Assembly: GCA_021582655.1 (NCBI GenBank)
Contig: CP091135.1
Location: forward strand, 2,297,317 to 2,361,316
Direction of reading: 5' to 3'
Length of the DNA: 64,000 nucleotides
From: Nitrosomonas sp.
Lineage (GTDB): Bacteria; Pseudomonadota; Gammaproteobacteria; Burkholderiales; Nitrosomonadaceae
The notes beneath the pieces were generated by a model. It made no database searches and was not told the origin of the DNA. It saw nothing but the letters and a program-made list of their open reading frames with translations. The number at the start of each line of letters is the position of its first letter. Position 1 is the stretch's first letter. The position numbers and the translations under genes were made by a program. Shown here in pieces: positions 18,399-55,462 of the stretch.

Positions 18399-18864
18399 GC
18401 TATTTACATCCACTGTGTAAAATAACTGTCACCAACTGTTACAAAATTACAACAAAATACCATTTCTTGACATTGATCAATATGACTCATCGATAGCGTT
18501 GATATTAATAAAAATGGAATACCGGATCCAAGGAAACACTGATTAATTCAGCGAATGAAATGCAACGCAAGGCGTATGGAACACAGCGCCGGGGCATATC
18601 AACAAGATGGGCAAGGAAGCGTGTTACCTCGCAACGCAGTGATTCACTCGTGCAACCAGTTAATCAACGCTGCCTTAACACACCACCCACACCGTTTTTT
18701 CGATGAATAACCGATAATAAAACGTTTCGAATTCGACTTTTAAACAAACAATTATCGCTTATAATACCGCCCCATAATTTTCAACAAAACAATGTAATAC
18801 CAATTATCACATTTTTTCGCACTAGTAACGGTAACGCATCAATCCAAATAACAGGAGTTTAGCA
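18399..18864. other. Intergenic region before the AlgE-like gene
   Basis: 466 bases without a gene. It holds one full MITE-like repeat (18532-18674). A TATAAT at 18760-18765 could be the -10 of the downstream gene, about 100 bases before its ATG, but no good -35 lies at the right distance. TTGACA at 18467-18472 has no convincing -10 partner. Confidence 0.45.
18532..18674 (+). repeat. MITE-like dispersed repeat, full copy
   Basis: Starts GGAAACACTGATTAATTC and ends GTTAATCAACGCTGCC, which read as imperfect terminal inverted repeats. The middle holds the family blocks GGAACACAGCG, AAGGAAGCG and TCGCAACGCAGTGATTC. About 143 bp, no coding capacity. The same blocks recur at eight other places in the window. 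Confidence 0.75.
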
Positions 18865-44418: not shown

Positions 44419-45162
44419 ATGACACAAAGCTTTTCATACCTTTCAAAAAAGCATATTCCGGCCCGGGAGCGATTGATTTTCGCTCTTGATGTTCCCACGG
44501 CACAAGAAGCCAAAGCGTTGGTTGAAATGCTCGGTGATTCGGTGAATTTTTATAAGCTGGGACTTGAATTGTTCATGGACGGCAATTATTTTGAGCTGGT
44601 CGATTGGTTGATCAGCCGCAATAAAAAAGTCTTTGTCGATTTGAAATTCTTTGATGTCGCCGAAACCGTCCGCCGCGCCGTCGGCCGCCTTAAAACCATC
44701 GGCGCATCGTTCGCCACCGTGCACCCGGTCAACGACGATATGTTGCGCGCCGTCGCCGAGGAAAAAGGCGCGTTAAGGATTCTGGTGGTTACGGTATTGA
44801 CCAGCCTGTCGCAAGACGATGCCCGGGATCTGGGATTTGCCTGCAACGTCGAGGATTTGGTGTTATCGCGTGCGCGGCGCGCCATCGAACTGGGCTGCGA
44901 CGGTGTGATTTCATCCGGCTTGGAGGTTCCGAGGCTTAGGGAGCAACTGGGCGGTCAATTTTTAGTCGTTTCACCCGGCATTCGTCCTGTCGACAACCGG
45001 CTGAGTGACGACCAGAAGCGCGTGGTTGATGTCAACCAGGCCTTTCTGAACGGTGCCGATTATATCGTGGTCGGCCGACCGATCCGCAATGCACCCGATC
45101 CGCGTACCGCGGCGGAAGCCATTCAACAAACCATAGCCGGCATCTTTTCCGCACCCGGTTAA
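44419..45162 (+). CDS. pyrF: Orotidine 5-phosphate decarboxylase
   Basis: Final step of UMP synthesis. The 247-residue barrel has IFALDVPTAQEAKALVEMLG (about 20-39) and the catalytic Asp-Lys-Asp in VFVDLKFFDVAETV (about 72-85). FATVHPVNDDM and the phosphate-binding SPGIRPVDN with YIVVGRPIRN at the end complete it. The in-frame ATG at 44368 would add 17 poorly conserved residues; 44419 (MTQSFSYLSKK) is chosen. It converges on the TVP38/reductase gene with a 4-base overlap. Confidence 0.94.
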   Translation: MTQSFSYLSKKHIPARERLIFALDVPTAQEAKALVEMLGDSVNFYKLGLELFMDGNYFELVDWLISRNKKVFVDLKFFDVAETVRRAVGRLKTIGASFATVHPVNDDMLRAVAEEKGALRILVVTVLTSLSQDDARDLGFACNVEDLVLSRARRAIELGCDGVISSGLEVPRLREQLGGQFLVVSPGIRPVDNRLSDDQKRVVDVNQAFLNGADYIVVGRPIRNAPDPRTAAEAIQQTIAGIFSAPG

Positions 45163-47315
45163 TTATCCATATCCGTACGTTGTTGGCCGCGCCGTTTGCC
45201 GTGATAGCACTCCAACCAATGTAACAACCGCTGCGGCGCATGTGCACGCTTCCACTCCCCCGCCGCATACTTGCCGGCTTCCGACCATGTCGGATAGGTA
45301 TGGATGGTGTTGAGGATCTTGTTCAATCCCAAACCATGCTTCATCGCCAACACGAATTCGGCCAGCAAATCACCGGCACGATTGCTCACGATACAGACAC
45401 CAAGGATGCGATCGCTGCCCGGTACCGTCAGTACTTTGACAAAACCATACGCCGCTTCGTCGGTAATCGCACGGTCCAATCCGGCCAGGTCGAAGCGTGT
45501 CACCTCGTAAGCAATACGCCGTGCCTGCGCCTCCATTTCCGACAAACCAACCCGCGCGACTTCCGGGTCGGTGAAAGTCGTCCAAGGAATCACTGAATAA
45601 TCCACTTTAAAGCGTTTGACAGTGCCAAACAATGCATTCACCGAGGCGTACCATGCCTGGTGCGCGGCAATATGCGTGAATTGATACGGGCCTGCGGCAT
45701 CGCCGCAGACGTAAATGTTCGGATACACGGTTTGCAGCCAGGCGTTGGTTTCAATGGTGCGTTGCGACGATACCGGAATCCCCAGCTGTTCCAATCCGAA
45801 ACCTTCCGTGCGCGCCACCCGGCCGACCGCACATAGCAATGCATCGAACGGCAGTTTCCTCGGCTCGCCGCCCTGGTCGCGCACCACTAAGAATTGTGCG
45901 TCGCCTTCCTGTTCGCAACGCAATACCTCCGTGTGCGTCAACAGTGTCACGCCATCCGCTTGCAAAGCCGCTTTGACCGATGCCGCAGCATCCGGGTCTT
46001 CGCGCGGCAGCAAACCGCTGCGGACAATTTGCATGACCCGGCAATCCAACCGGGCGAAGGCTTGCGCCAACTCGCAACCGATTGGACCACCGCCCAGCAC
46101 AATCAAGCGTTCCGGCCGTTCGGTCAGCATCCAAATGGTATCCGAGGTGTAGTGACGCACCGCTTCCAGGCCGGGTATTTCCGGCACGGCCGGACGTGCG
46201 CCGGTGGCAATGACGATGGCGCGCGCGGTCAGCGTTTGCCCGTTGACCGCCACCGACCACGGCGAGGTGACGACGGCTTTGCCATGTAATACCTCCACTC
46301 CCATCCGGGCGTAGCGTTCCGCTGAATCATGCGGTTCGACGGTTCTGACAATGCGTTGAACGCGCGCCATCACATCGGCAAAATCGTAGTCAGCACGCGC
46401 CTGCCGCACACCCAGGGCTTCGCAATGCCTCGTCTGGTGCAAAAAACCGGCAGTACGGATCAGCGCCTTGGACGGTACACAACCGTAATTAAGGCAATCA
46501 CCCCCCATTTTGTGATGTTCGATCAGTGTCACCCTGGCGCGCACCGCAGCGGCAATGTAAGCGCTTACCAATCCGGCGGCACCGGCGCCGATGACGATCA
46601 GATTGCGATCGAACCGTGCCGGTTTCGGCCAACGCGCATATAACCGCCGGGTTCTGATCTGCGCGACAACCCAGCGCGCCAACCAGGGAAACAACGCCAG
46701 CGCGGTGAATGAGGCCATCAATGCCGGCGACATGATATCCGCGAGTTCGACGACTGCCGCCAATTGCGTACCCGCATTCACATAAACCACGGTTCCAGCG
46801 AACATCCCGACCAAACTGACCCAAAAATAAGTGCTGCTGGGCAACGTCGTCAACCCCATCAGCAAATTGATCAGGAAAAACGGAAAAACCGGCGCCAGGC
46901 GCAATGAAAACAAATAAAACACACCATCACGCTCCAACCCTCGATTGATGGCTTCCAGGCGATCACCGAACCGCCGCTGCACCGGTTCCCGCAATAAGTA
47001 GCGCGCCATCCAGAACGCCAACGTGGCACCGACGGTGGCCGATAACAACACCACCGGTACACCGACCCATACGCCGAACATGGCGCCCCCCGCCAACGTC
47101 AGCACCGTCGCACCGGGAAACGACAACGCGGCCATGACGATATAGGTCAAGGCATATACGCCGATGACCAGCAACGGTTGCTGCCGATAGGTCTGTTGCA
47201 AATCATTGCGGCTTTCCTTGAGCGCTTCAAGATCTAAGAAACGATCCGGGCCTGCTATAAAAAAACAACCGACGATCAATCCCAGCAATAAAACAATCCA
47301 TCCGGGTTTTTTCAT
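45159..47315 (-). CDS. Fusion of TVP38/TMEM64 membrane domain and FAD disulfide reductase
   Basis: 718-residue two-part protein. Residues 1-225 are a SNARE-associated/TVP38 membrane domain (FPGATVLTLAGGAMFGVW and RFGDRLEAINRGLERDG). From about 235 it is a class I pyridine-nucleotide disulfide oxidoreductase: FAD site LIVIGAGAAGLVSAYIAA, redox pair in GGDCLNYGCVPSKAL, NAD site LIVLGGGPIGCELAQ, second FAD site IYVCGDAAG and a dimerisation domain. It resembles mercuric reductase or dihydrolipoamide dehydrogenase, but the C-terminal cysteine pair of MerA is not seen. The electron partner is unknown; the membrane domain places it at the inner membrane. Confidence 0.88.
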   Translation of the reverse strand: MKKPGWIVLLLGLIVGCFFIAGPDRFLDLEALKESRNDLQQTYRQQPLLVIGVYALTYIVMAALSFPGATVLTLAGGAMFGVWVGVPVVLLSATVGATLAFWMARYLLREPVQRRFGDRLEAINRGLERDGVFYLFSLRLAPVFPFFLINLLMGLTTLPSSTYFWVSLVGMFAGTVVYVNAGTQLAAVVELADIMSPALMASFTALALFPWLARWVVAQIRTRRLYARWPKPARFDRNLIVIGAGAAGLVSAYIAAAVRARVTLIEHHKMGGDCLNYGCVPSKALIRTAGFLHQTRHCEALGVRQARADYDFADVMARVQRIVRTVEPHDSAERYARMGVEVLHGKAVVTSPWSVAVNGQTLTARAIVIATGARPAVPEIPGLEAVRHYTSDTIWMLTERPERLIVLGGGPIGCELAQAFARLDCRVMQIVRSGLLPREDPDAAASVKAALQADGVTLLTHTEVLRCEQEGDAQFLVVRDQGGEPRKLPFDALLCAVGRVARTEGFGLEQLGIPVSSQRTIETNAWLQTVYPNIYVCGDAAGPYQFTHIAAHQAWYASVNALFGTVKRFKVDYSVIPWTTFTDPEVARVGLSEMEAQARRIAYEVTRFDLAGLDRAITDEAAYGFVKVLTVPGSDRILGVCIVSNRAGDLLAEFVLAMKHGLGLNKILNTIHTYPTWSEAGKYAAGEWKRAHAPQRLLHWLECYHGKRRGQQRTDMDN

Positions 47316-47342
47316 GTTCTTCCTTGACAGTAACAATCGCAC

Positions 47343-47707
47343 GACATCATAGACCGACCGATAACCGACTACTCGTTATACTTCAGAATCGTTTCATCCA
47401 TAGAACAATTTGTATTTTGGCAATCCGGGATGCAACGGGAGCACCGGCAGCACTGCACGGCAAGTTGATTGTGGAACATAGACGCCCCCATACCGGAAGA
47501 TACGATTGCGTTATTTCTTGAATCGGCGCTTCAATAAAAGATGAAACGATTCCTCCGCACCGAACAATATGAAATTAAAGCAATTATGATGTGAGAAAAC
47601 TCACATCGGTGACTCAGCATTGTACGTTAGAGTTAGAGAAATGCTGATTAAAAATGCGTCATCGAGAACGTATCAACGCAATCACTTTTATGATGAGGGG
47701 GATAAAC
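47343..47707. other. Intergenic region at the left edge of the AT-rich island
   Basis: 365 bases with no gene. It holds a perfect CRP-type palindrome at 47590-47605 (separate entry). A short piece GAGAAATGCTGATTAAAAATG near 47636 resembles one terminal end of the MITE-like repeat. Base composition shifts to AT-rich here. Confidence 0.45.
47590..47605. promoter_or_regulatory. CRP/FNR-family operator-like palindrome
   Basis: TGTGA-N6-TCACA, the exact core consensus for CRP, inside a perfect 8-bp inverted repeat GATGTGAG-AAAA-CTCACATC (47588-47607). It lies about 100 bases upstream of the ORF at 47708, a suitable place for activation. Confidence 0.6.
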
Positions 47708-49012
47708 ATGCCACGCTGCTTATTGGTATTATTTATTACGACGTTAATTTCATTTGATGCCCACTCCTCTCAAGAGAACTGCGATGCCCCGCTTCCTGAT
47801 CAGCTGCTTCAATCCACTCTTGATTTTTATGAGAAACAGTATCTTGAACTAAAAGGGGAACCCGTCGATTGGCAAAAAACAGCCGATGTGCTCCTTCTTC
47901 TCGCTTTCGCTGTGATCATTCTCGGCGCAACTGTAGCGGCATTACAACCTATACCCGATACTGCCCGGAAAAAATGGATAATCGGGATAATCGGAATACT
48001 CATAGCAAGCACTACCTATCTTAGGGATACGTTATTCGATGGTTCGTCATACCGGTCATTTCAGCAAGCTATCAATAAGGCAAAAAGCATAGGAAGCGAC
48101 ATTGATAAGGATCTTGCTTCAACCCAAGAGCCCGGGCTTCCCTCGGAGGTTACCAAAACATTACTCACTCACATATGCAAAAACGTGACATCCCTACAGG
48201 AATTAAGAACGGCACACTCGGTAGATCTTCCGCAATTTTTGGATTTTTTCATAAAAACTGCGGCAGCGGACAATTTGCCGGATTGGGTCAGCCAGCCCCC
48301 GAGCCAAGGCTGGATAGTATCCGGGGGCGAAGGATTATCCCTCAGCGAGGCGAAAAGCAATGCGGAACAAGACGGCTACACTAAAATTTCTAGTGCTATC
48401 GGGCGTCTAATAGACGCGTCTTTTTCAAAGCCTATCCATAGCTCATTAAAAAAAGAAGTACAAGAATCATTAATGAAAATGGGACAAGTGAAGAAAATTT
48501 CCTTCGACACCAGCAAATCCCCCATAACCTACTGGATTCTTTATTCCATCGATGAGAAAACCATCAGTGGCATTCTGAGCGGAACCGCATTTCCGTTAAC
48601 AATATTTTCTACCGATCTAATCGCCAACAAAGTTGAAACTTTAAACAATGAACTTACTGAATTCGGATTCACCGTGACTGTCAGTACTGCGCCTAGGGGG
48701 CCCTCGAGTGAAACAAATGCCATTTTCGTTGGCGAGGGCGTGCCGGTTGATGCAGTCAAGAAAACCGTCCGAGTTTTGGTGGATCAAGGTATTCCGCTTA
48801 AGGCGATAATATATCCCTGGCGTTTCCGAAAAAGTGATTTACCCGAGATTCAGAAAATTAACCACCTACAAATCGGCGGCTCCGATCTCTTTGAGGCATG
48901 GCCAAAACTCAGCGAAAATGATTTGGATAAGCTCCATAAAATTTCATCACAAAACGATTTGACAGAATATAGCAAAACAGCCATGGATCAACTAAAGGAG
49001 CTCTTAAACTGA
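47708..49012 (+). CDS. Membrane-anchored LPP20-like protein, unknown function
   Basis: 434 residues from ATG 47708, which follows an AGGGGG site. Signal or anchor at about 1-18, then two transmembrane helices (about 65-83 and 95-110). Near residues 191-235 is an LPP20-type motif: LPDWVSQPPSQGWIVSGGEG then LSLSEAKSNAEQDGYTKISS. The C-terminal third has a small domain with NAIFVGEGVPVDAVKKTVRV and IPLKAIIYPWR, then LQIGGS, similar to short domains found at the ends of some signalling or effector proteins. Codon use is AT-rich relative to the core genes. I cannot assign a role. Confidence 0.65.
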   Translation: MPRCLLVLFITTLISFDAHSSQENCDAPLPDQLLQSTLDFYEKQYLELKGEPVDWQKTADVLLLLAFAVIILGATVAALQPIPDTARKKWIIGIIGILIASTTYLRDTLFDGSSYRSFQQAINKAKSIGSDIDKDLASTQEPGLPSEVTKTLLTHICKNVTSLQELRTAHSVDLPQFLDFFIKTAAADNLPDWVSQPPSQGWIVSGGEGLSLSEAKSNAEQDGYTKISSAIGRLIDASFSKPIHSSLKKEVQESLMKMGQVKKISFDTSKSPITYWILYSIDEKTISGILSGTAFPLTIFSTDLIANKVETLNNELTEFGFTVTVSTAPRGPSSETNAIFVGEGVPVDAVKKTVRVLVDQGIPLKAIIYPWRFRKSDLPEIQKINHLQIGGSDLFEAWPKLSENDLDKLHKISSQNDLTEYSKTAMDQLKELLN

Positions 49013-49373: not shown

Positions 49374-49940
49374 ATGCGTGAATTGAGCGGATTAATTTGG
49401 GTAAGACGATTTCCAGGTAGTAACAAAACTGCAGACCTTACCCCCACCTTTAAAACGAATGTAGAGTCCTTCCTGATCGCGTTAAGAACAGCAGGTGCAA
49501 ACATTCATATTAGCGCTACTTTTCGTCCCCCTGAAAGAGCTTATTTGATGCACTACGCATGGGAAATTGCACGTAATGGCGTAAATCCCGCTACTGTTCC
49601 CGGGATGCCTGGGGTTGATATCGAATGGGCGCATAAACTGTCCAATGGCACTATCGATTTAGTTAAGTCAAAACAAGCTGCGGAAGAAATGATCGGATCA
49701 AGTGGATATAACATGGTTCAAAGAGCCGCGTTAAAAGGCAGACATATGGAAGGACGTGCTATCGATATGAATATCACATGGAATGAGAGCCTTATCATCA
49801 AACAAAAAGATGGTTCCGAGCTGACTATCGATACGAAACCCAGAGATGGAACTAACATCAGCCTGCATTCCGTTGGAGCCGGCTACGGTGTGATTAAATT
49901 ACTAAGCGACCCACCTCATTGGTCTGATGATGGTCATTGA
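49374..49940 (+). CDS. Peptidase M15-like protein
   Basis: 188 residues. SATFRPPERAYLMHYAWEIA (about 43-62) and GRHMEGRAIDMNI (about 121-133) match the M15/VanY pattern where His and Asp bind zinc. The protein ends PPHWSDDGH, the position of the third zinc ligand in HW(S/D) motifs. Predicted to cut peptidoglycan peptides or a similar substrate. No signal peptide is visible, so it may act with the neighbouring exported proteins or as an endolysin-like enzyme. It precedes the next ORF by 6 bases. Confidence 0.65.
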   Translation: MRELSGLIWVRRFPGSNKTADLTPTFKTNVESFLIALRTAGANIHISATFRPPERAYLMHYAWEIARNGVNPATVPGMPGVDIEWAHKLSNGTIDLVKSKQAAEEMIGSSGYNMVQRAALKGRHMEGRAIDMNITWNESLIIKQKDGSELTIDTKPRDGTNISLHSVGAGYGVIKLLSDPPHWSDDGH

Positions 49941-49946
49941 GGCATA

Positions 49947-50594
49947 GTGACTTTTGTGCTTTCCCGGAAACTTGATTATTACCCGCGAACGACGATGCAT
50001 TGGTACGTTCTGATTTTATTGTGTTTAGGAAGTAACCTCGCTGTTGCAGAACATAAAAAACCGGGCTTGGGGTTACTTGTCATGAGTGATCCGAAAACCG
50101 CAAAACCTAAAATCGTGAGTGAGCCAGGAATATTTAAGCAATCCGATGAAATTACTATTATTTCTATCCCGGACATGCTCCGCTATTGCTGTGCGAAAAT
50201 TAAAGGCGGCGGACTTAGTCAATCTTTCGCGATTAGAATAAACAGCAATACCGGTCAACAGCTAATAGAACATCATATCAACTGGTTACCTCAAGCAATA
50301 GCCGGAAGGTTAGCTGTAGCAATAAAAGGCAATATAAAAATTATTGAGCACAAGAGCAATGAAAATAAGATTCTCGTTGATATGGATGCGGACGGTATTC
50401 CGGAAGCAATAAAAATTTGCGCAAGCAGCGAAGGAGTTCACATGACAGCTTGGTCCGGTTCATTTAAAAACATGTCAAGAATTTGGCATGCCTATTATTA
50501 TCTTGGTCAAGATCTGGAATCGAACTGCTCAACAGAGGAAATCGGTTTTTTCATAGACTCCGTAGTAGCCGCCTTCCAAAAATCAAGACCCTGA
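49947..50594 (+). CDS. Secreted protein of unknown function
   Basis: 215 residues from a GTG with a TGAGG site; an ATG at 49995 would give a cleaner signal peptide (MHWYVLILLCLGSNLAVAEH). The mature part has PDMLRYCCAKIKGGGLSQSF and an Asp-rich LVDMDADGIPEAIKICASSE that resembles a calcium-binding or lysozyme-inhibitor-like turn. Cysteines at four positions could form disulfides. It directly follows the M15-like gene, so the pair may be an enzyme and its periplasmic partner or inhibitor. That link is speculative. Confidence 0.6.
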   Translation: MTFVLSRKLDYYPRTTMHWYVLILLCLGSNLAVAEHKKPGLGLLVMSDPKTAKPKIVSEPGIFKQSDEITIISIPDMLRYCCAKIKGGGLSQSFAIRINSNTGQQLIEHHINWLPQAIAGRLAVAIKGNIKIIEHKSNENKILVDMDADGIPEAIKICASSEGVHMTAWSGSFKNMSRIWHAYYYLGQDLESNCSTEEIGFFIDSVVAAFQKSRP

Positions 50595-50626: not shown

Positions 50627-51304
50627 ATGATCGCTTCCGGTCAGTTCGTCTTAGGGATCAGCCTTGGATATTTGCTTTTCTCAATTGCAGAATCTTTTAT
50701 CCATAAACATGTTTTGCATGCTAAGCGGCAAATTAGAGAATATTGGCCTAAATTAGGCTTCATAGGCACCTACCTCCAGAATTCGTGGTATTCGCATCAT
50801 GTTGTACATCATCACAGAACGTTTAAAAGCAATCATGTGACGTTATTTGATTCTGAACATCAGAGAAAAGAATTAAATCAATTACTCACTGAAAATGGCA
50901 AAAGCTCGATTATTTTCAGTAGTTATGGTCTTAGAGTCGGCAATCTTTTTGAAAAAATCAAATATCTGTGTCCGCATTTACCATGGATTATTGCAGCTTG
51001 TTATTTTGGAGGGGGTTGGTTCACACTAGGACTGTTTGTCCCACTATGCTTTTATATATGGATAGCAGAGTATGTTCACCCTTATCTTCATTTTCCCCAT
51101 AACCAAGCTATAGACTCAGCATCAACGCTTATGCGATGGGTCTTAAAAACCCAATATTTTAGATTTCTCACTCAACATCATTACCTTCATCACAAATATA
51201 TCAACTGCAATTTTAATTTGATGCTTGGCGCAGATTGGCTATTAGGGCACCATCAATCACCCAACGATAAAGATTATTCAGAAATCAATGAATTAGACCT
51301 TTAA
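50627..51304 (+). CDS. Fatty acid hydroxylase superfamily di-iron membrane enzyme
   Basis: 225-residue integral membrane protein with the histidine clusters of the fatty acid hydroxylase/sterol desaturase family in order: HKHVLH (HX4H, about 26-31), HHVVHH (HX2HH, about 57-62), HPYLH (HX3H) and HHYLHH (HX2HH, about 185-190). These bind two irons that activate oxygen for C-H hydroxylation. Transmembrane segments lie at about 5-25 and 120-150. The likely substrate is a lipid. Its downstream neighbour is a cyclooxygenase-like gene on the same strand, which suggests a joint oxylipin pathway. Confidence 0.82.
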   Translation: MIASGQFVLGISLGYLLFSIAESFIHKHVLHAKRQIREYWPKLGFIGTYLQNSWYSHHVVHHHRTFKSNHVTLFDSEHQRKELNQLLTENGKSSIIFSSYGLRVGNLFEKIKYLCPHLPWIIAACYFGGGWFTLGLFVPLCFYIWIAEYVHPYLHFPHNQAIDSASTLMRWVLKTQYFRFLTQHHYLHHKYINCNFNLMLGADWLLGHHQSPNDKDYSEINELDL

Positions 51305-51314
51305 ATAATAAAGG

Positions 51315-51330
51315 TGTGATTTTTCTCACT
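51315..51330. promoter_or_regulatory. Second CRP-type operator-like site
   Basis: TGTGA-N6-TCACT, one mismatch from the CRP core consensus. It lies 10 bases after the hydroxylase stop and about 257 bases before the cyclooxygenase-like start, with a MITE-like repeat in between. Confidence 0.45.
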
Positions 51331-51358
51331 GACGCTTCATTCAGAAAAAATTAAGCTG

Positions 51359-51506
51359 GGAGAACACTGATTAATTCGACGAAAGAGATGAGGTGCGAGG
51401 CACACGGAACACAGTCACCGAAACCTATCAATACATCGACGAGAAGGCGAGTTACCTTCGCACTGAAGCGATTCGTTCGTGCAGCCTAATTAGTCATTGC
51501 TTCTCT
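51359..51506 (+). repeat. MITE-like dispersed repeat, full copy
   Basis: Ends read GGAGAACACTGATTAATTCG and CTAATTAGTCATTGCTTCTC. The interior shows ACGGAACACAGTCACCG, AACCTATCAATACATCG and TTCGCACTGAAGCGATTCG. It separates the CRP-type site from the cyclooxygenase-like gene. Confidence 0.75.
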
Positions 51507-51586
51507 GGATTCTTAAATCCAGACTCAATTGCCACAAATGACCTGCACTTTGAAACATTGGCTTGATCTCTTAAAAAGGAATACAA

Positions 51587-53179
51587 ATGAATCTTCCTAC
51601 ATTTATTCAGACGCTTGCTGCAACCATTATTAACAAGATCTCCGAGATATCTCCTTTCTTACGAGGATTAATTAATCAACTTGCCACTAATAGCGCTGTT
51701 AATGTTTGCAGACACCGCCCTCATCCATGGAGCACAGTGCATCATTACGTGTCTTGGACTTCATTGACGAATAAACAATGGAGTGCGAGACATCTTCCGG
51801 AGAAGACACTTAATCCGCCCAAGGATGGATCAGCAATTTCAGACTTATTTCGGAGAGAATCCGGAAAAGCCAGGCTATGTCCGAAATCCACCTGTTTATT
51901 TCCAGCTTTTGCTCAGTATTTAACTGACGGATTCATTCGCACACGTATGCCCAATACAAGTAGTCATGAAGATGATGCTATACGCAAGCAAAATACTTCA
52001 AATCATGAAATTGATCTAAGCCCTCTATACGGTAGAACGGAGGTACAAACAAAGAGCCTTCGTTGTTTAAGCCAAGAACAGGGCATGAAAGGCAAGCTTA
52101 AATCTCAAAAGCTCAACAATGAGGAATTTGCACCTTTTTTATATGAAGAATCCAGCAATGCGTATCGAATCAAAAGTGAATTTAAAGTACTCGATACTCC
52201 ACTGGGCATAGACAATATTATTCATGACAAAGAAAAAATTTCACGCATTTTTGCATTTGGTGGTGACCGTGCCAATACCTCTCCTCAAATAGCATTAATG
52301 AATACCTTGTTTCTTCGTGAGCACAATCGCTTAGCAAGTAAGATTGAGACAGCACACCCGGATTGGGACGATGAAAGAATTTTTGAGACAGCACGGAACA
52401 CGAATATTGTTGTTTTTATAAAAATCGTCATCGAAGAATATATCAATCATATTTCTCCTATATTCAAATTTCACGTTGACCCATCCATTACATGGAATGC
52501 TTCTTGGAACAAACCGAATTGGATTACAACTGAATTCAGCTTGCTCTATCGCTGGCATATGCTTATACCCGATGTAATGAGATGGGGAAAGCAAGAATAT
52601 TCCGTTGATAACACCATACTGAACAATGCGCCATTACTTGATACCGGATTGAAGCAATCCTTTGTTGACATGAGTTCGCAAATTGCTGGCCAGATAGGCG
52701 CTTTTAATACTGCTCAAGCGCTTGTCAAACTGGAGGAAAATGCAATTCGACAAGGAAGGATTTGTAACCTGGCCTCTTATAATGACTATCGAGCATACGT
52801 AAAGCTTCCAAAATTAGCTTTCAAAGACATTTCTAAAAACCAAAGTGTCACTCATCTTCTGGAGAAAGCTTATCATGAAGCTAATGACATTGAATTTTAT
52901 GTGGGTTTATTCTCCGAAGATGTAACACCTAACTCGCCATTGCCAAGACTGTTAAGAACAATGGTTGCAGTTGATGCTTTTTCTCAAGCACTGACTAATC
53001 CTCTGCTTTCTGAACATGTCTGGCCGCAAGGACCAGAAGTTTTTTCCAAGACAGGTTGGGAAGCGATTAACCAGACGAATAGCCTGCGTGATGTCGCTAA
53101 TAGAAACTGTGGCCTCCCATTGTCTGATGATGAATTTATTGGAATGACCCGCAAAGACTGGCGCCCACAGTGGTTTTGA
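51587..53179 (+). CDS. Cyclooxygenase-like haem dioxygenase (animal haem peroxidase family)
   Basis: 530-residue protein clearly related to animal prostaglandin H synthase. LFLREHNRLASKIETAHPDW (about 241-260), DDERIFETAR, IKIVIEEYINHIS and FSLLYRWHMLIPD (about 318-330) all parallel PGHS. The last motif places a tyrosine (Tyr321, the radical tyrosine position) three residues before the proximal haem histidine (His324). The distal motif reads FAQYLTDGF (about 108-116) where PGHS has FAQHFTHQF, so Gln110 is kept but the distal histidine is Asp114. It is a likely fatty-acid dioxygenase with weak peroxidase activity. Codons are AT-rich. The ATG follows an AAAGGAA site. Confidence 0.88.
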   Translation: MNLPTFIQTLAATIINKISEISPFLRGLINQLATNSAVNVCRHRPHPWSTVHHYVSWTSLTNKQWSARHLPEKTLNPPKDGSAISDLFRRESGKARLCPKSTCLFPAFAQYLTDGFIRTRMPNTSSHEDDAIRKQNTSNHEIDLSPLYGRTEVQTKSLRCLSQEQGMKGKLKSQKLNNEEFAPFLYEESSNAYRIKSEFKVLDTPLGIDNIIHDKEKISRIFAFGGDRANTSPQIALMNTLFLREHNRLASKIETAHPDWDDERIFETARNTNIVVFIKIVIEEYINHISPIFKFHVDPSITWNASWNKPNWITTEFSLLYRWHMLIPDVMRWGKQEYSVDNTILNNAPLLDTGLKQSFVDMSSQIAGQIGAFNTAQALVKLEENAIRQGRICNLASYNDYRAYVKLPKLAFKDISKNQSVTHLLEKAYHEANDIEFYVGLFSEDVTPNSPLPRLLRTMVAVDAFSQALTNPLLSEHVWPQGPEVFSKTGWEAINQTNSLRDVANRNCGLPLSDDEFIGMTRKDWRPQWF

Positions 53180-53215: not shown

Positions 53216-53367
53216 CTAAGATGAATCGCCCCGTTTTTTCCGGGGTCTCATTCTGTTGTCGATATAAGCCATCTCGAATTCAACCGGTGGAATATTTCCG
53301 ATCGCTTCCAGCAGCCTTCGCTTGTTGAACCAATCCACCCATTCCAGGGTGAAAAATCCCACTTCTT
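53216..53367 (-). pseudogene. IS3-family OrfB C-terminal fragment
   Basis: Minus-strand reading gives LEWVDWFNKRRLLEAIGNIP then PVEFEMAYIDNRM, the end of an IS3-family integrase (WVDWFNxRRLLExIGxxPP motif), with its stop at 53216-53218. The rest of the transposase is missing. It lies 37 bases after the cyclooxygenase-like gene. Confidence 0.7.
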
Positions 53368-53462
53368 TGATGCTACACCATGGGCTGCAACGCCGAATGA
53401 CTGAAGTGGTACCGAAAAGTTGGATAGGCTGCTAAGCTCAGCTCTTGCATAATAGAAGGGCA

Positions 53463-54785: not shown

Positions 54786-55462
54786 TCATCGCTGGCGTGT
54801 ATCCCCGAGTGCCGTACTCAGGCGTTCATTATTGTAAATCCATAACCATTGTGTAGCGGTAAGCTGTACCTCTTCAATGGTTGCAAATTCATTCATCTCC
54901 AACCATTCATGCCGAACGGTTCTTATAGCGTTCTGCGTAAGCATTTTGTTGTGGCTTTCCTGGTTGGATGTAATCAAGCTGGAACCTCGATTTTCTGTCC
55001 AACAACGAAACGTACCGCTGATAGTTGCCGGCCCATTAGTAGAGTAACCAATCGACGATTTCCTCGTTCTCATCGTTGAGCATCGGCCGATAACGATAGC
55101 AGGTCTCAGAAATACCAAATGTTGCACAGCCCCAAACGATATTAACAGACTTATCCTGTACTGCTCACTGCACCATTACCTTGCGCTACGGGGGCTTTAC
55201 CACTTTTTCCGAGTGCCTCCTTCAACAACTCATTCTGCATCCGGCTTTCCACATACGCTCGCTTTAGCCGTTTGTTTTCCTCCGTCATCGCCTTCATTTC
55301 AGATAGCAGGGCAGCATCCATGCCGCCATACTTGACTGCACCATTTATAAAAACTTGCATGCTCATTCCATACTCTCGGTATAAATCAGCCACAGAAACG
55401 CCTCCCTCAGCCTGCTTCAATATCCGAATAATCTGGCTTTCCGTAAATCGTTACTTCTTCAT
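54786..55462 (-). pseudogene. Decayed IS3-family element (OrfA with early stop, OrfB with internal deletion)
   Basis: OrfA begins at ATG 55462 with MKK, then a TAA, then RFTESQIIRILKQAEGG and YREYGMSMQV, and runs to about 55151. Homologues have a serine where the stop is, so one base change (TCA to TAA) killed it. OrfB keeps its start (FGISETCYRYRPMLNDENEE, near 55100) and its end (TQWLWIYNNERLSTALG, near 54800), but most of the catalytic core is deleted. No clear terminal inverted repeats were found. Confidence 0.75.

Follow-up and report, generated by a model that had tools for sequence, protein, structure and literature searches.

A putative 10S-DOX-type haem dioxygenase gene adjoining a His-box membrane protein gene in a Nitrosomonas genome

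We analysed a 64-kb stretch of DNA (the window; positions 2297317-2361316 of the 2.46-Mb single-contig genome of a Nitrosomonas sp., G000, estimated to be 83% complete), in which the gene of a haem dioxygenase related to prostaglandin H synthase (PGHS) follows the gene of a histidine-rich, His-box membrane protein. Both genes are intact open reading frames (ORFs) on the (+) strand, encode 530 and 225 aa, respectively, and are separated by 282 bp (Table 1). The best reading of the 530-aa protein is a bacterial haem dioxygenase of the 10S-dioxygenase (10S-DOX) type, so named by motif, that would act on monounsaturated fatty acids. We cautiously favour, at slightly better than even credence, an explanation in which the 225-aa protein acts on the same acyl chain.

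Fold and active-site residues of the dioxygenase

The 530-aa protein matches the Pfam family An_peroxidase at 1.7e-45, the sole An_peroxidase match in this genome, and its best match in the PDB is PGHS-1 (5.2e-48), with 30.4% identity to the PGHS-1 segment over 427 columns. Judged by these matches, whose similarity is far beyond chance, the protein is a member of the cyclooxygenase-peroxidase superfamily. The PGHS hallmarks from which a sequence-only reading of this locus had proposed a cyclooxygenase-like gene, LREHNR (residues 243-248), IKIVIEEY and YRWHMLIPD, are all present, together with LTDGF (distal motif), YINHISP (central motif) and DAFSQA (terminal motif).

Residue correspondences were taken from an alignment of 89 bacterial dioxygenases (the window protein included, identical sequences dropped), seven distant peroxidases and the PGHS-1 segment. 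Tyr321 and His324, which the same reading had placed at the radical and proximal positions, align with PGHS Tyr385 and His388 as proposed; in addition, Trp323 corresponds to Trp387, Gln110 to Gln203 and Tyr285 to Tyr348. Gln203, Tyr348, Tyr385, Trp387 and His388 are retained in 89/89 bacterial sequences. The column of the distal His207, by comparison, holds Asp in all 89 (Asp114 here) and His in all seven outgroup peroxidases, and the Ser530 column holds Ala in 89/89 (Ala464 here). The Arg120 column, which lies in the poorly aligned N-terminus, holds Arg in 0/89 sequences (Val38 here), the Gly526 column holds Val460 in the window protein, and the Val291 column is occupied by Arg228 here, by Arg in 65/89 sequences and by His in 23/89.

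By this alignment, the protein does not have the residue set of a true cyclooxygenase (COX), with the distal His, Arg120 and Ser530 all replaced, and the name "cyclooxygenase" as such has to be given up. An enzyme making prostaglandin-like endoperoxides would agree with PGHS-1 and PGHS-2 being the best solved relatives and with the retained catalytic Tyr, Trp and proximal His, but the three replacements and the change of Gly526 to Val render it highly improbable; furthermore, we know of no arachidonate production in such organisms. Superfamily membership would also suit a protective peroxidase, halide or general, rather than a lipid oxygenase. We consider this improbable, given that the distal His is replaced throughout the bacterial sequences and that Tyr385 and Tyr348, both invariant there, are retained in only 4/7 and 0/7 of the outgroup peroxidases.

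As a separate observation, the mechanically called dioxygenase ORFs at L065-L069 and L071:7393-9465 are longer (about 670-710 aa), with about 150 extra N-terminal residues. They lie near RoxA-like genes and, in L065-L069, also near catalase-family genes.

The His-box membrane protein

The 225-aa protein contains 20 His, grouped in the clusters H26/28/31, H57/58/61/62/63, H151/155/158 and H184/185/188/189. Its four HX2-3HH motifs compare with a mean of 0.26 in composition-preserving shuffles, of which 4/20000 reach four, and 11 His are invariant across six His-box sequences. Hydrophobic stretches at about residues 1-26 and 120-150 are consistent with a putative attachment to the membrane.

In the kind and number of its His boxes the protein is like the integral-membrane di-metal enzymes of PF04116 and PF00487 (fatty acid (FA) desaturase), but it matches neither family above any cut-off. 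Specifically, it has no match in Pfam, NCBIfam, PADLOC or PHROGs, a solved-structure search gave no family either, and PF04116 finds neither this protein at E values up to 10 nor any other in the whole genome. Profile-profile comparison (hhalign) gives a probability of 17% over 23 columns for PF04116 and of 14% over 78 columns for PF00487, and one of five homologues has a weak FA_desaturase match (E 0.0022) below the cut-off. Assignment to PF04116 or PF00487 by Pfam, NCBIfam or solved structures failed, and the profile-profile values do not establish it. The four His clusters of the fatty acid hydroxylase-type gene proposed earlier are thus borne out and its family name is not; in our judgement the product is better named a His-box membrane protein.

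The His-box gene was found in 5/125 genomes of the family Nitrosomonadaceae, in 2/300 of an order sample (G000 and G379) and in 2/398 of a phylum sample (G000 and a weak match, 2.8e-4, in G772), and the protein is clearly seen in only six genomes here. The G379 homologue (35% identical) lies 10 bp from an FA_desaturase gene (3e-27), followed by a 4HBT_2 thioesterase-like gene (2.3e-21), and near the His-box gene of G055 lie a patatin gene, the gene of an M15_4 peptidase and two unassigned lipoprotein-like genes. These two have counterparts after the G037 dioxygenase gene (the loci are L104:7955-9377 and L108:8521-9754; 51% and 62% identity). Carriage of the His-box gene by viruses or plasmids was considered and dropped, as neither the plasmid nor the phage collections yielded a match; on viral contigs, no relative of the dioxygenase was confirmed.

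Distribution and neighbours of the dioxygenase family

The dioxygenase query matches 24/125 Nitrosomonadaceae genomes, 21 of which carry a dioxygenase proper and three (G009, G043 and G074) a distant peroxidase only. Type A comprises the copies of the window, of G037 and of nine genomes of another genus, several of them identical with named Nitrosospira or Nitrosovibrio loci; in G094 a TGA lies in the matched frame. Type B is present in 17 genomes, 8 of which also carry type A, and G079 has one odd copy that is neither. A class draw of 369 genomes gave 20 matches, strong only in G000 and G1040 (4.8e-129 in the latter). The closest dioxygenase in a named record belongs to a Nitrosomonas metagenome-assembled genome (L037; 86% identity). 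In a tree made by a quick method (SH-aLRT support only, long branches flagged, 70 of the 89 sequences left after thinning at about 90% likeness), the window copy groups with that of G037 (100); a Thiosymbion copy joins these two next (89), and the Nitrosospira clade stands separately. G079 falls outside the well-supported 53-sequence clade that contains the window copy; its branch is long and its composition odd, so that its exact place is unsure.

A lipoxygenase (LOX; PF00305) occurs in 17/125 family genomes, exactly those with a type-B dioxygenase (G010, G012, G014, G019, G020, G021, G064, G066, G076, G096-G098, G100, G101, G108, G110 and G114). In 17/17 it follows the type-B gene on the same strand, with 426-566 bp between the matched ends; in the two loci for which gene borders are given, L110:9335-12683 and L111:9134-12516, the gaps, measured from where the dioxygenase match ends, are 146 and 171. 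In G020, a patatin and a second haem peroxidase are additionally encoded nearby. The G000 genome has no lipoxygenase match.

Within 4 kb of 73 dioxygenase genes, a set that leaves out the window, holds many close relatives and counts L071 twice, we find catalase-family genes (8), RoxA-like di-haem genes (8), P450 genes (7), lipoxygenase genes (2), a patatin gene (1) and a His-box gene (1). On annotated plasmids of Rhizobium and Sinorhizobium, a cytochrome P450 gene lies directly upstream of the dioxygenase gene; on those of Paracoccus and Methylobacterium, a catalase-family gene lies beside it. On a Paracoccus yeei plasmid (L117:3051-7527), RoxA-like di-haem, catalase-family and dioxygenase genes form a tight run, which could encode three oxygen-handling enzymes of one oxylipin pathway. 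For parts of the dioxygenase family we regard an oxylipin role as likely, and for the window dioxygenase as plausible.

Co-occurrence of the two genes

Several results weigh against a shared pathway of the two window genes. In the co-occurrence comparison that had been set beforehand as the refuting test, the pair almost never occurs elsewhere. Both genes are present in 2/125 family genomes (that of the window and G079), which is not an enrichment over what presence alone would give (P = 0.20). The His-box gene turns up in 0/42 dioxygenase genomes (of 67 loci fetched), a search with no positive control of its own, although the same query finds five in the 125 family genomes. G037, whose dioxygenase is 86% identical and lies at the same comM locus as in the window, has no His-box gene, and 3/5 family genomes with a His-box gene have no dioxygenase. 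The two genes do not form a tight operon, since the 282 bp between them hold a repeat and what may be a separate control site. Across the wider family, of 61 dioxygenase genes whose flanks are complete, 44 lack every tested partner within 4 kb, and the window has no match to the catalase, P450, LOX, RoxA or patatin queries. As for the name of the enzyme, its 10S-DOX likeness comes from motifs printed in a review rather than from an alignment with the Nostoc sequence, and against the residues given there the window protein has Val460 for Ile483, Leu112 for Phe143 and Tyr438 (PGHS Tyr504) for Phe.

The genome counts and the G037 locus favour a rival explanation, in which the dioxygenase acts by itself, or with a partner encoded at another locus, and the neighbouring His-box gene, unrelated to it, came in with the upstream run of genes. 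Consistent with this, two other genes precede the His-box gene at gaps of 6 and 32 bp. On the other side, the two genes are adjacent in both genomes that carry both, on the same strand at 282 bp in the window and divergent at 96 bp in G079. The two dioxygenases come from different lineages, and in G079 the 11.6 kb surrounding the pair contain no match to the comM query. Two chance adjacencies have a probability of about 6e-7 in a uniform-placement model, an estimate that ignores the clustering of foreign genes, which would raise it. In addition, lipid genes surround the distant His-box homologue of G379. We rate this rival as a serious possibility, though below even; it shares the dioxygenase part of our favoured explanation, so that the odds of the two overlap and do not sum to one.

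A dioxygenase match is absent from G379, G772, G025 and G055, and G069 has weak ones only (1.9e-4 and 4.7e-4). A shared insertion hot spot is not favoured, because the window pair lies by comM and the G079 pair does not adjoin a comM match. Upstream of the G037 dioxygenase, a 75-bp match reaching into the final 26 bp of the His-box gene hinted at a leftover of that gene, but no protein remnant was found there and the idea was likewise set aside.

Origin and selection

Both genes are AT-rich, with GC contents of 0.37 and 0.41 and GC contents at third codon positions (GC3) of 0.34 and 0.35, compared with a GC3 of 0.55-0.61 in three nearby genes. Between the window and G037, the dioxygenase genes are 86% identical in DNA and the three shared flanking genes 69-78%, while synonymous divergence is 0.58 for the dioxygenase and 1.99 for the neighbouring comM. 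The low synonymous divergence, high DNA identity and low GC3 together indicate probable horizontal exchange and point to horizontal acquisition of the dioxygenase, in support of the origin suggested earlier for the pair.

Both genes are under purifying selection. For the dioxygenase compared with that of G037, the ratio of nonsynonymous to synonymous substitution rates (dN/dS) is 0.128. Of six His-box pairs, five give 0.114-0.146, four of these five with dS >1, and the sixth is saturated. These values and the intact frames make it quite improbable that the pair is acquired cargo in decay with no present function, an explanation that could draw on the AT-richness and on the repeat copies and transposon-like debris at the flanks.

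The dispersed repeat between the two genes (Table 1) occurs at eight places in the window, with matches at 18535, 26364, 29399, 42758, 44188, 53879 and 63396, up to about 140 nt long, some <50 nt, and 68-80% identical. Two copies flank the dioxygenase gene in inverted order. The repeat has no match in G037 and one related match on a Nitrosomonas plasmid. The stretch downstream of the dioxygenase gene may be a transposon remnant.

Proposed mechanism

In the explanation we favour, peroxide would oxidise the haem of the dioxygenase, upon which Tyr321 would become a radical and abstract an allylic hydrogen from a monounsaturated fatty acid, most likely C16:1 or C18:1. Such bacteria contain mainly C16:1. 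Addition of O2 would then give an allylic hydroperoxide of predicted regiochemistry. Asp114, perhaps together with Arg228, could substitute for the distal His in activating the haem. The His-box protein, which has a desaturase- or hydroxylase-like metal site by motif only, would act on the same acyl chain, before the dioxygenase to provide its substrate or after it to modify its product. For the oxidised-lipid pathway proposed from the sequence alone, part of the dioxygenase family has neighbours that place it in a lipid-oxidation context; the shared substrate of a specific two-enzyme pathway, which the two enzymes may form, rests on adjacency in two genomes.

A broader proposal, which we hold to be doubtful, is that the distal-Asp COX-like dioxygenases constitute a wide oxylipin toolkit with an exchangeable second enzyme, be it a lyase-like catalase, a P450, a di-haem RoxA-like protein or a lipoxygenase. 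In some ammonia oxidisers the second enzyme would be a new His-box membrane family that converts the hydroperoxide or makes the substrate, leading to an undescribed oxylipin.

Cyclooxygenase-type chemistry has been studied mostly in animals, plants and fungi. The present data show a COX-like family in ammonia-oxidising bacteria, with an invariant Asp at the position of the peroxidase His, and raise the questions of how a haem dioxygenase is activated without a distal His and whether nitrifiers produce oxylipins. The data also offer a candidate for a new lipid enzyme in the His-box protein.

Surrounding genes and candidate control sites

The first gene of the upstream run encodes a 452-aa protein with no family match in Pfam, NCBIfam, PADLOC or PHROGs. 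The 188-aa protein has no Pfam match and no significant match among solved structures; its GRHMEGRAIDM stretch presumably recalls M15-type peptidases, an identity that neither the Pfam nor the solved-structure search confirmed. An anti-phage defence role was also considered and discarded, with no PADLOC match for five window genes; among five other proteins in the same scan, the G055 patatin alone matched, weakly. Farther out, a gene at 45159-47342 (-) encodes a 727-aa fusion of a VTT membrane domain and a pyridine nucleotide-disulphide oxidoreductase, and fragments of an integrase-core and helix-turn-helix transposase lie at 54786-55420 (-), between the dioxygenase gene and comM.

CRP/FNR-like sites lie upstream of the 452-aa gene and between the pair, and the latter, TGTGATTTTTCTCACT, is also found upstream of the G037 dioxygenase gene. 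The pattern occurs in 3 rows in the window against 0.34 expected, with 1/100 shuffles reaching as many. In the whole G000 genome, TGTGAN6TCAC gives 24 rows when both strands are counted, corresponding to 18 distinct sites, compared with 4 rows for the reversed control, an excess that suggests a CRP/FNR-type regulon. Common control of the upstream run and the dioxygenase is suggested by these putative sites. No such site was found at the 17 other family dioxygenase loci scanned, G079 included.

Table 1. Features of the window around the dioxygenase and His-box genes
Feature	Position	Strand	Basis or remark
CRP/FNR-like palindrome TGTGAGAAAACTCACA	47590..47605		upstream of the gene at 47654
452-aa protein with hydrophobic segments, first gene of the upstream run	47654..49012	+	ORF
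188-aa protein	49374..49940	+	ORF; weak phrog_16453 match (8e-4)
215-aa protein, hydrophobic stretch at N-terminus	49947..50594	+	ends 32 bp before the His-box gene
225-aa His-box membrane protein	50627..51304	+	His clusters, hydrophobic stretches
CRP/FNR-like site TGTGATTTTTCTCACT	51315..51330	+	between the pair, upstream of the dioxygenase gene
Dispersed repeat, about 140 nt	51360..51505		sequence comparison; between the His-box and dioxygenase genes
530-aa PGHS-like haem dioxygenase (10S-DOX type by motif)	51587..53179	+	Pfam An_peroxidase, PGHS-1 match, residue columns, dN/dS
Stretch downstream of the dioxygenase gene	53252..53401		75% identity with a fragment next to the His-box gene of G055

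Comparison with known systems

A review by Gupta, Selinsky and Loll (2015) reportedly covers bacterial and algal PGHS orthologues and may already describe parts of what we report. The bacterial members named in the available part of another review are cyanobacterial (the Nostoc 10S-DOX and alpha-dioxygenases; PMC13049297), and lipoxygenases have been characterised in Nitrosomonas europaea, according to PMC11941309. In a literature search over titles and the starts of abstracts, with most subscription journals outside its range, we recognised among the matches listed neither a dioxygenase-lipoxygenase gene pair in nitrifiers nor a report of the His-box partner, which does not by itself show their absence.

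The window protein is like animal PGHS-1 and PGHS-2 in fold and in Gln203, Tyr348, Tyr385, Trp387 and His388, and unlike them in having none of the distal His, Arg120 and Ser530. The PGHS match begins 16-24 residues from its N-terminus and so leaves no room for an EGF-like domain, which we take to lie at the N-terminal side in the domain order of PGHS. The plant alpha-dioxygenase (fatty acid alpha-oxidase) is a haem dioxygenase of the same superfamily and retains the distal His; the A3 profile finds it (4kvj) at 1.6e-26, a far weaker sequence match than that of PGHS.

The closest parallel by motif is the linoleate/oleate 10S-dioxygenase of Nostoc punctiforme (B2J5P4). In the review cited above, this enzyme is about 31% identical to COX, has FtdsF in place of the COX motif FthqF and Ala487 in place of Ser530, and carries GxDAFxQA as its terminal and YIxxITP as its central motif; an Arg at the Val291 position is conserved in DOXs (PMC13049297). 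The Nostoc enzyme oxidises oleic and linoleic acids to 10S-hydroperoxides (PMC13049297). Since it takes oleic acid, a monounsaturated acid can be a substrate, which answers the objection that such bacteria are without polyunsaturated lipids. Its partner is a catalase-related lyase, whereas no catalase-type query matches in the window. As far as the printed motifs go, the window protein shares with it the distal Asp, the Ala for Ser530, DAFxQA and YIxxI-S/T-P, a similar length (530 compared with 542 aa) and a similar identity to COX-1 (30.4% compared with about 31%). A relative on an Acaryochloris plasmid (37.8% identity) falls in the same 53-sequence clade as the window copy.

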